Part shown: positions 3,060 through 4,686 of the stretch, in pieces
How positions within the stretch are numbered: position 1 is the first letter of the stretch
How the letters are laid out: each line of letters opens with the position of its first letter
NCBI GenBank assembly: GCA_011754535.1
Contig: JAAQVN010000001.1
Location: forward strand, 620,001 to 684,000
Reading direction: 5' to 3'
Origin: Enterobacter asburiae
GTDB taxonomy: Bacteria > Pseudomonadota > Gammaproteobacteria > Enterobacterales > Enterobacteriaceae
Length of the DNA: 64,000 nt
Position numbers and translations under genes: made by a program
Notes under the pieces: generated by a model
What the model saw: only the letters and a program-made list of their open reading frames with translations
Told to the model about the DNA's origin: nothing
The model's database searches: none

Positions 3060-4061
3060 TCAAAACACCGGCACCCCCAGCCCCACCTTCACCTCCCTCA
3101 ACGTCGCCTGCGTCACCCCCTGCGCCCGTTCCGTGCCGCGCTTCAGCATCGCCATCAATTCCCCCTTGTCCTGCATATACATCGCCCTCCGCTCCCGCAT
3201 CGGCGCAATCAGCTCCTGCAAACACCCCTCCAGCTCGTTCTTACACGCCCGGTCGCCCAGCCCGCCCGCCTGATAGTGCGCCTTCATCGCCGCCACTTTC
3301 TCCTTGTCCGGATGAAACACGTCGAGGTACGTAAACACCACGTTCCCCTCAATCTGCCCCGGGTCGCTCACCTTCAGGTGGTTCGGGTCGGTGTACATGG
3401 CGCTGACCGCACGGTGGATCGTCTCTTCGCTGGCCGAAAGGTGCAGCGTGTTGCCCAGTGATTTCGACATCTTGGCGCTGCCGTCGATGCCGGGCAGGCG
3501 GCTGGTGTCGCTCAGCATCGCCTTGCAGTGGCGCAGCACCGGGGCGGGCAGCAGGCTGTTCATCTTGTGCACAATCTCGTTGGTCTGCTCAATCATCGGC
3601 AGCTGGTCGTCGCCGACGGGCACGCACTCGGCCTTAAACGCGGTGATGTCCGCCGCCTGGCTGATGGGGTAGGCCATAAACCCGACCGGCAGCGAGCGGG
3701 CGAAGCCCTTCTGCGCAATCTCGTTTTTCACCGTCGGGTTACGCTCCACGCGGGTGACGGTGACGATGTTCATATACAGCATCGTCAGCTCGGCGAGGGC
3801 GGGCAGGGCGGACTGCAGGCAGATCGTGGTCAGGTTTGGGTCGATGCCCGCGGCGAGGTAGTCGGCCAGCACTTCGGGGATGTTGTCGCGAATTTTTTGC
3901 GGGTTGCTACCGTTGTCGGTCAGCCCCTGAAGGTCGGCAATCAGCACAAACTGGCTGTGCGTCTGCTGGAGCGCTACGCGCTGGCGCAGCGATCCGACGA
4001 AGTGGCCGAGGTGCAGCGGGCCGGTTGGGCGATCGCCGGTGAGGATGGTGGGTGCGTTCAT
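3060..4061 (-). CDS. trpS: second tryptophanyl-tRNA synthetase
   Basis: A 333-residue class I aminoacyl-tRNA synthetase that charges tRNA-Trp with tryptophan. The HIGH-type motif is GPLHLGHFVGS near residue 14 and the KMSKS motif is GSAKMSKSLGN near residue 195. It is unlike the housekeeping E. coli TrpS, which lies in the dam-rpe-gph region, so this appears to be the extra TrpRS carried by some enterobacteria. AAGGAG stands before ATG 4061. Upstream is a Trp-codon leader peptide with mutually exclusive hairpins, so expression should rise when charged tRNA-Trp is scarce. Extra TrpRS enzymes in other bacteria resist indolmycin-like inhibitors; whether this one does is inference. Confidence 0.9.
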   Translation of the reverse strand: MNAPTILTGDRPTGPLHLGHFVGSLRQRVALQQTHSQFVLIADLQGLTDNGSNPQKIRDNIPEVLADYLAAGIDPNLTTICLQSALPALAELTMLYMNIVTVTRVERNPTVKNEIAQKGFARSLPVGFMAYPISQAADITAFKAECVPVGDDQLPMIEQTNEIVHKMNSLLPAPVLRHCKAMLSDTSRLPGIDGSAKMSKSLGNTLHLSASEETIHRAVSAMYTDPNHLKVSDPGQIEGNVVFTYLDVFHPDKEKVAAMKAHYQAGGLGDRACKNELEGCLQELIAPMRERRAMYMQDKGELMAMLKRGTERAQGVTQATLREVKVGLGVPVF

Positions 4062-4097
4062 AAAGACTCCTTAATGTGCAGTTGCCGAAAGGGGTCT

Positions 4098-4178
4098 TAG
4101 AAATGTGAAAGCCGCCTTTCGGCGGCTATCTGAAAATGGGGAAAACTACTCCGTGCCGCCTTTAAGAAGGCAGCCACC
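4098..4178 (-). promoter_or_regulatory. tryptophan transcription attenuator of trpS2
   Basis: Four segments on the minus strand form alternative pairings. Segment 1 (4167-4174, GCTGCCTT) pairs with segment 2 (4155-4162, AAGGCGGC). The GGCGGC of segment 2 can instead pair with the GCCGCC of segment 3 (4121-4127). Segment 3 (AGCCGCC) also pairs with segment 4 (4110-4116, GGCGGCT) across a GAAA loop, followed by TTTCACATTT, a terminator-like end. The leader's tandem Trp codons (4174-4179) overlap segment 1 and its stop codon lies in the 1:2 loop. A ribosome stalled at Trp would free segment 2 to form the antiterminator. This is the classic trp/pheS layout. Confidence 0.8.
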
Positions 4179-4215
4179 AGCGGTTTACGGTGAGCACGGT
4201 GTGGTTTATGTTCAT
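4162..4215 (-). CDS. Trp-rich leader peptide of trpS2
   Basis: A 17-residue peptide, [17 protein letters not shown], encoded from ATG 4215 to TAA 4162 just upstream of the trpS2 attenuator. Two consecutive Trp codons near the end are the sensing element: uncharged tRNA-Trp would stall the ribosome there. AAAGAG precedes the start as a modest ribosome site. Its start lies only 45 bp from the divergent fosA start, so the two promoters must be interleaved. It serves control, not a protein function. Confidence 0.78.
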
Positions 4216-4260
4216 CTCTTTACCGTACCACGTCCGGCGCGAAAAACAAAAGGGCACGTC

Positions 4261-4686
4261 ATGCTGCAATCTCTCAACCACCTGACCCTCGCGGTCAGCG
4301 ACCTGCAAAAAAGCGTCACCTTCTGGCACGAGCTGCTGGGGCTGACCCTGCACGCCCGCTGGAATACCGGGGCCTATCTCACCTGCGGCGATCTGTGGGT
4401 CTGCCTGTCGTACGACGAGGCGCGCCAGTACGTGCCGCCGCAGGAGAGCGACTACACCCACTACGCGTTTACCGTCGCGGAGGCGGATTTTGAACCGTTC
4501 TCACAAAGGCTTAAGCAGGCGGGCGTCACCGTCTGGAAGCAGAACAAAAGCGAGGGGGCGTCGTACTATTTTCTCGACCCGGACGGGCACAAGCTGGAGC
4601 TGCACGTGGGCAGCCTCGCCGCGCGGCTGGCGGCGTGTCGCGAGAAGCCCTACGCGGGCATGGTGTTTACCTCAGACGAGGCTTGA
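4261..4686 (+). CDS. fosA: FosA fosfomycin glutathione transferase
   Basis: 141 residues, the usual FosA length. It adds glutathione to fosfomycin and opens the epoxide in a Mn2+/K+-dependent reaction in the cytoplasm. The vicinal-oxygen-chelate metal ligands are present: His7 (NHLTL), His67 (THYAF) and Glu113 (KLELH), along with Thr9 and the KSEGASYYF loop. AAAAGGG lies before ATG 4261; a longer upstream frame is not needed. Chromosomal fosA of this length is typical of the E. cloacae complex and related genera. It is divergent from the trpS2 leader and overlaps the 3' end of the convergent lacI-type gene by 15 bp. Confidence 0.94.

Follow-up and report, generated by a model that had tools for sequence, protein, structure and literature searches.

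The window analysed here, a stretch of 64,000 nucleotides of Enterobacter asburiae DNA (contig JAAQVN010000001.1), comes from a genome of 4.96 Mb in two contigs and carries trpS2, the gene of a second tryptophanyl-tRNA synthetase (TrpRS), preceded by a leader whose features are collected in Table 1.

The trpS2 gene and its neighbours

The solved structure closest to TrpS2 is that of Tryptophanyl-tRNA synthetase II (2a4m, E 2.1e-111), and the protein shares 28% identity with the genome's other TrpRS; the similarity to Tryptophanyl-tRNA synthetase II and the presence of another TrpRS place it among the auxiliary enzymes (TrpRS II). Against the main TrpRS, the motif GAQP is changed to GDRP and DLHA to DLQG. 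We take the H of DLHA to be Bst H43 and the Q of GAQP to be Bst Q9. Bst H43 is named as a determinant in the accessible part of a work on indolmycin and TrpRS (PMC4899734), and passages of PMC5069768 and PMC6804068 also treat this inhibitor and enzyme.

The gene fosA (4261–4686, forward strand) diverges from the trpS2 leader, and only 45 bases (4216–4260) lie between the leader AUG and the fosA start, with the leader promoter boxes inside them. Elsewhere in the window, positions 1572–2045 encode a domain of a SymE-type toxin (PF08845) and positions 399–1319 a 306-aa ORF with an HNH endonuclease domain (PF13391).

In Salmonella transposon insertions in trpS are tolerated and trpS2 was suggested as the substitute, according to an excerpt of PMC3487940, which also gives E. 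coli K-12 as lacking trpS2, and a 2-fold rise of trpS2 together with trpDCBA in biofilm is given in a passage of PMC2805695. The Salmonella trpS2 (STM4508) was co-regulated with SPI-2 in the cluster analysis of PMC2639726, as far as its accessible part goes, for which our model gives no explanation. At the Salmonella locus L019 (positions 2671–2831) the sRNA isrQ (RF01399) stands head-to-head with the trpS2 leader on the opposite strand; it was placed between STM4508 and STM4509, with 0 reads (PMC2515195). In Pseudoalteromonas luteoviolacea DSM 6061 (L079, 2941–5842) the violacein genes vioE and vioD lie tail-to-tail with trpS2. The violacein pathway consumes tryptophan. P. luteoviolacea is also an indolmycin maker, and a Trp-tRNA ligase was proposed inside the indolmycin cluster (PMC5069768, in part), the identity of which with the trpS2 of L079 is a possibility.

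Table 1. Features of trpS2 and its leader in the window (all on the reverse strand).
Feature	Position	Strand	Basis
-35-like box TTGTTT of the putative leader promoter	4244–4249	-	sequence; share of T in 45 sequences, 73% at -35 and 53% at -34
Putative extended -10, TGG TACGGT, -15 to -7 from the leader AUG	4222–4230	-	TAnnnT position across 45 sequences
Leader peptide ORF, mRNA probably leaderless	4162–4215	-	sequence; no SD ahead beyond background
Tandem Trp codons UGG UGG, proposed stall site	4174–4179	-	119/127 trpS2 loci
Segment 1, pairs with 2	4167–4174	-	cognate -16.4 versus swapped -12.8 kcal/mol
Segment 2, pairs with 1, or with 3 via 4155–4160	4155–4162	-	2:3, 95.8% of cells paired (A1), nearly invariant
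Segment 3	4121–4126	-	3:4, 95.8% of cells paired (A1)
Segment 4, closes 3:4 over the GAAA loop 4117–4120; weak U-rich tail next	4111–4116	-	
Segment 5	4084–4098	-	4084–4092 complementary to the 3:4 tip (4115–4123, 9 bp); 4089–4098, anti-SD arm
Segment 6, trpS2 SD (GGAG 4067–4070), predicted to be sequestered by segment 5	4063–4072	-	folding, swap tests
trpS2, second tryptophanyl-tRNA synthetase, 333 aa	3060–4061	-	TIGR00233, 213.5 bits

A tandem-tryptophan leader peptide and its distribution

The first-pass annotation of this DNA had proposed a 17-residue peptide with Trp codons ahead of trpS2 and a stop codon in the loop of hairpin 1:2. The 17-codon ORF is present and its UAA lies in that loop; the whole element, however, exceeds the 4098–4215 interval first assigned to it, the promoter-like boxes reaching 4249 and segments 5 and 6 reaching 4063. 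Conservation of the tandem Trp codons (WW) in relatives, which the annotation had named as a check, is extensive: an ATG ORF of 9–35 codons with TGGTGG lies within 270 nt upstream of 119 of the 127 trpS2 genes, and in the controls the same search was positive for 2 of 301 regions upstream of other ATG ORFs and for 216 of 14,689 random 270-nt windows. The control ORFs were ATG ORFs of at least 200 codons found mechanically on both strands of 80 named loci. Beyond WW and the C-terminal residues coded by segment 1 the leader peptides diverge widely. The leader is real, widely conserved and tied to trpS2, and it has the cognate-codon reading frame of the trpL-type attenuators.

The 127 loci, the window included, are those with a TrpS2 at least 58% identical to that of the window, and there are many close relatives among them, such as Aeromonas species. 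A contig search supplied the 80 named loci and more came from genomes of the order and class, where TrpS2 was matched at E 1e-60 in 49 of 295 and in 16 of 369 genomes, respectively (own genome counted in both). WW is missing from eight of the 127 loci, namely four of Acinetobacter (L076, L077, L078, L082), L140, L126, and L024 and L133, which have a single Trp where the others have WW; it is also missing from all 17 loci below 58% identity. In the phylum-level search 33 of 398 genomes matched, 10 of these from the order; eight matches (two fragments and six at 37–39% identity) were left out of the locus set and of the spare/sole count given below. The 15 phylum-level loci outside the order comprise nine with WW (L154–L158, L160–L163), one with a single W (L150) and five without WW (L148, L149, L159, L164, L165).

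The plasmid sample consists of 11 records among the matches listed (40 of 102). Five of the six named alpha- and betaproteobacterial plasmid loci among these matches have WW (Methylocystis, Burkholderia, Variovorax, Agrobacterium and Roseibium), the Rhizobium leguminosarum plasmid trpS2 being without a WW leader. The leader is also absent from the four loci labelled Streptomyces, Staphylococcus, Enterococcus and Bacteroides among the matches listed, and these four gave no Rfam match at gathering score. One 9.3 kb plasmid record labelled Streptomyces griseorubiginosus (L172) has an AT-rich region upstream of trpS2 that is, by eye, nearly identical to that of a Staphylococcus epidermidis plasmid, possibly owing to contamination or transfer. 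In E. coli the leader region was matched in 2 of 5426 genomes, both times on plasmids (H41, H42; L182); one match spans all 175 bases and is adjoined by a partial FosA-like hit and an IS3000 element, and the other covers 53%, with an IS1-like transposase annotated.

The leader tracks the spare status of the TrpRS. Where the genome has another TrpRS, WW was found in 52 of 54 cases (44/44 in the order, 2/3 elsewhere in the class, 6/7 in other classes), as against 1 of 10 genomes in which TrpS2 is the sole TrpRS (Fisher p 1.9e-8, with relatedness ignored). The exceptions among genomes with a second TrpRS are L159, without WW, and L150, with its single W; in G907 (L160) TrpS2 is apparently the only TrpRS and the WW leader is kept (MNFSYPHSLLQAWWRR), contrary to the rule. 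For these counts 64 genomes were searched with the main TrpRS and 12 again with a Burkholderiales-type TrpRS, the genome of the window being added; in G285 the call of a sole TrpRS comes from a genome that is 79% complete. Besides the eight phylum-level matches, the count excludes G163, whose second copy is only about 40% identical, and the 14 other class-level loci L113–L126 (13 at 36–43% identity and the fragment L126); G163 and these 14 loci all lack WW.

The bases ahead of the leader are patterned as well. Counted from the leader AUG, TAnnnT occupies exactly -12 to -7 in 23 of 45 sequences, no other scanned offset having it in more than four, and T at -15 (51%), G at -14 (53%), T at -35 (73%) and T at -34 (53%) are also enriched; for this count the leader AUG was picked by peptide length alone. 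In the window a generic sigma-70 scan did not call the -35-like box TTGTTT. Promoter boxes stand at just these distances from a transcription start, which would accordingly fall at the leader AUG itself, as far as the placement of promoter-like boxes can indicate it. For SD-like pairing, the bases preceding the leader AUG score at background level in the 45 sequences (mean -2.3 versus random -2.0 kcal/mol), with 8 of 45 at -5 or better; ahead of trpS2 the mean is -7.1 kcal/mol, and 43 of 45 are at -5 or better. Judged from sequence, the leader mRNA is probably leaderless or nearly so.

Competing pairings from the leader to the trpS2 SD

Folding and swap tests were made on 35 dissimilar gammaproteobacterial representatives (6-mer sharing below 45%), drawn from 118 script-delimited WW loci. 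Twenty of them form set A1 and 12 set A2, the named members of which are Pseudoalteromonas and Photobacterium; L069, L071 and L073 are in neither, and the Enterobacteriaceae core numbers 12. The alignment-free swap tests were used because the MAFFT alignment was poor for 5:6 and gave no covariation for 1:2; they include no tree model and were repeated inside clades.

Folding of the 169-nt leader yields -56.4 kcal/mol (z -3.7), a stability that none of 200 shuffles equalled. All three pairings of the first-pass annotation exist in the window: 1:2 has 8 bp (4174–4167 with 4162–4155), 2:3 has 6 bp (4160–4155 with 4126–4121) and 3:4 has 6 bp (4126–4121 with 4116–4111; GCCGCC-GAAA-GGCGGC, then UUUCACAUUUCU), and they are mutually exclusive as in attenuators of the trpL type. 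Cognate 1:2 partners pair at -16.4 kcal/mol and swapped ones at -12.8, with 0 of 5000 permutations as good (A1 0, A2 0, core 10 of 5000 within sets), but covariation of 1:2 is absent on the MAFFT alignment of A1. For 2:3 the values are -12.0 and -11.3 kcal/mol (9 of 5000 permutations; 3546 in A1, 57 in A2 and 424 in the core), and because this pairing is almost invariant in the clade of the window it gives no covariation evidence there.

The T-rich end ascribed to hairpin 3:4 is present as 7 T in 12 bases, but the longest run in the window is 3 and a scan of 3900–4500 found no intrinsic-terminator-like site. T runs of 5–7 follow 3:4 in L052, L057, L034, L025, L036, L043 and L049; in the 12 A2 sequences the longest run is 1–4, and by eye strong runs are few in the alpha- and betaproteobacterial loci (L163, L181). 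A search of 3900–4400 of the window against Rfam release 15 returned five weak matches, with E values as high as 5, all of them short of the gathering score. No T-box, riboswitch or Trp leader family was matched in the window, and these candidates were set aside.

Immediately ahead of the trpS2 SD, the 35 representatives carry a stretch with two complementary partners, the SD itself and the tip of hairpin 3:4. The second of these duplexes (34:5) pairs at -21.6 kcal/mol with cognate, -15.4 with swapped and -12.8 with shuffled partners, and 0 of 5000 permutations were as good (A1 0, A2 0, core 9). Paired cells amount to 91.7% in A1 and 93.7% in A2, as compared with at most 68% for slid versions, and the covariation score exceeds all 500 shuffles in both sets. 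For 5:6 the cognate mean is -13.2 and the swapped mean -8.9 kcal/mol, with 0 of 5000 permutations as good (A1 0, A2 9, core 0); the pair counts in A2 show 84.4% paired, 5 of 500 shuffles reaching the score, and on the MAFFT alignment of A1 the pairing is unsupported (65.7% paired, poor register, a slid version scoring higher). Both pairings recur in the 15 alpha- and betaproteobacterial loci when wider segments and hand-picked trpS2 starts are used (34:5, -32.4 versus swapped -24.6 kcal/mol; 5:6, -13.2 versus -11.0; 0/5000 each), and in L156 the 34:5 duplex reaches 13 contiguous pairs, GCCGCCAGCCAUG with CAUGGCUGGCGGC. Within a single sequence the match of 34:5 and 5:6 to the partner is of only moderate rarity: random 30-mers of the same locus match 34:5 in a median of 2% (window 7%) and 5:6 in a median of 3% (window 4%), and the best of 100 random 30-mers equals or beats 34:5 in 25 of 35 representatives. 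An RNA model built from A1 had 23 matches in 148 genomes; those abutting trpS2 are all seven that exceed 60 bits together with three of lower score, and the other 13 (25–32 bits, away from trpS2) are probably due to chance.

The conserved WW, the cognate 1:2 pairing, the specificity of the RNA model and the link with spare status strongly support the original proposal that a Trp-codon leader controls the second TrpRS, and we regard Trp-codon control of trpS2 as very likely. The form given to it, a classical four-segment termination attenuator, is correct as to the pairings but incomplete, because segments 5 and 6, which covary, link the hairpin to the SD, and because the window has a weak U-tract and many relatives only a short one. 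Attenuation of the trpL type only, with 3:4 as an intrinsic terminator, 2:3 as the antiterminator and the SD hairpin as an incidental feature, would account for the GC-rich 3:4 stem with its GNRA-type loop and for the T runs of 5–7 in some relatives; it is nevertheless unlikely, since the tail in the window is weak with no terminator called, long runs are lacking in A2 and scarce in the alpha and beta loci, and both conservation and covariation are seen for the SD hairpin and for 34:5. The opposite reading, in which attenuation is purely translational and no termination takes place in this host, agrees with the negative terminator scan and with the sequences that keep all remaining features without a U-tract, yet the 7 T after the stem of the window and the longer runs in relatives such as L025 make it a still less probable one. 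Because sequences with no long T run still have the SD hairpin and 34:5, we take SD occlusion to be the probable shared output, with termination an add-on. The SD of trpS2 is paired in the OFF hairpin, as the downstream SD of a translational attenuator is, and SD control of trpS2 is likely.

A proposed switch and its place among attenuators

In our preferred interpretation, which we hold with fair confidence, the element is a ribosome-mediated attenuator sensing the charging of tRNA(Trp) through a leaderless or nearly leaderless peptide and acting mainly by hiding and exposing the SD, some lineages adding intrinsic termination as a further layer of control. When charged tRNA is replete, the ribosome would pass WW and halt in the 1:2 loop; 3:4 would then close with its tight tetraloop, some transcripts may be terminated where a U-tract follows, and segment 5 would pair with the SD, giving the OFF state. 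When charged tRNA is short, a ribosome stalled on WW would cover segment 1, so that 2 pairs with 3 on emergence and the loop together with segment 4 is left open as a toehold for segment 5. Segment 5 would bind this toehold and invade segment 3 to form the 34:5 duplex, leaving the SD free (ON). Because the leader RNA combines two Trp codons with rival folds that hide or free the SD, the spare enzyme is probably made only under shortage of charged tRNA-Trp, and we infer that trpS2 would be induced by starvation and equally when the main TrpRS falls behind through inhibition or loss.

The direction of this switch was considered in energetic terms in the 35 representatives. At equilibrium the mean probability of the SD being unpaired is 0.10 in the free leader; masking segment 1 gives 0.14, masking both 1 and 2 gives 0.12, and locking 2:3 gives 0.15; thus the predicted stalled state stays largely OFF and the SD is not freed. 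A simple thermodynamic relay, in which 2:3 alone frees the SD, was rejected, as just 3 of 35 representatives gain over 0.2 in this probability when 2:3 is locked. Capture of the anti-SD by the loop and segment 4 alone was also rejected since the full 34:5 duplex is needed, and the kinetic reading alone remained. The stalled state being mostly OFF at equilibrium, the model rests on kinetics. Before the SD is transcribed the estimated median barriers are 4.6 kcal/mol for 2:3 to 34:5, 19.6 for 3:4 to 34:5 and 8.8 for 2:3 to 3:4, these being heuristic path searches between hand-chosen structures rather than simulations. The barrier to 34:5 is lower from 2:3 than from closed 3:4 in 35 of 35, and 34:5 is more stable than 3:4 at this stage in 20 of 35; the barrier from ON to OFF has a median of 18.3 kcal/mol and is below 5 in 7 of 35. 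These estimates allow, and tend to favour, a kinetic cotranscriptional switch.

A peptide or leader RNA acting in trans, or a peptide arresting the ribosome, could replace the sensing of tRNA charging, and the leaderless trpL RNA and peptide of Sinorhizobium meliloti do have trans roles according to the available part of PMC7298713. This appears very improbable for trpS2, where the peptides vary widely outside WW and the C-terminus coded by segment 1 and where the RNA pairings are made in cis with the trpS2 SD.

Taken at its broadest, the attenuator proposed here may represent a Proteobacteria-wide RNA family that has no match in Rfam 15, a generalisation towards which we incline by a small margin. 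In such a family a leaderless Trp leader peptide would drive a six-segment toehold-exchange switch, the arm antisense to the whole tip of a terminator-like hairpin would at the same time be the anti-SD, and one stalled ribosome would set both termination and initiation for the spare TrpRS; control of translation would be ancestral, termination having come later in some lineages, e.g. Enterobacteriaceae and Aeromonas. The element would add a codon-sensing RNA to the aminoacyl-tRNA synthetase controls known in Proteobacteria and would couple a classical attenuator to SD sequestration in a form well suited to study by compensatory mutagenesis. On this view a silent spare TrpRS would be present in many bacteria and would come into use when the main enzyme is inhibited, a prediction that bears on antibiotics against TrpRS such as indolmycin. 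The element may also serve as an experimentally accessible example, from Proteobacteria, of an attenuator peptide translated from a leaderless mRNA.

The enterobacterial trpL, hisL and pheM (pheST) leaders contain cognate codons and mutually exclusive 1:2, 2:3 and 3:4 pairings. The trpS2 leader shares both features with them and differs in having segments 5 and 6 that extend to the SD, an optional U-tract and no recognisable SD of its own. In the erm and cat translational attenuators a stalled leader ribosome refolds the RNA and a hidden SD is freed. The stalled leader ribosome would free a hidden SD here too, but stalling there is brought about by drug and peptide and here would be brought about by codons, with a terminator-like hairpin built in. 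The leader of the Streptomyces auxiliary trpS was reportedly the subject of experimental work by Vecchione and Sello in 2010. The accessible parts of the literature searched contain no proteobacterial trpS2 leader, and a mention in Vecchione and Sello 2010, Vitreschak 2004 or Panina 2001 is possible. The opinion of the first-pass annotation that leader attenuation of a TrpRS gene is known only from Streptomyces fits the excerpts of PMC1262725, where a candidate attenuator of S. avermitilis trpS2 is given, and of PMC8079986 on S. lividans trpL2. These leaders resemble ours in placing Trp codons before a TrpRS gene; compared by description, they differ in being presented as transcription attenuation, with a segment sequestering the SD going unmentioned in those excerpts. 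S. lividans trpL2 is also alike in its leaderless transcript with no uridine-rich sequence downstream, and unlike in its one Trp codon (MMTRTCTQLWRAA) as opposed to WW here (PMC8079986, in part). The trpL/rnTrpL of S. meliloti, in the available portion of PMC7298713, likewise has a Trp leader in which the 5' end of the RNA is the AUG, but its target is trpE(G), reached through transcription attenuation, whereas the leader described here would act mainly on the SD of a spare synthetase.
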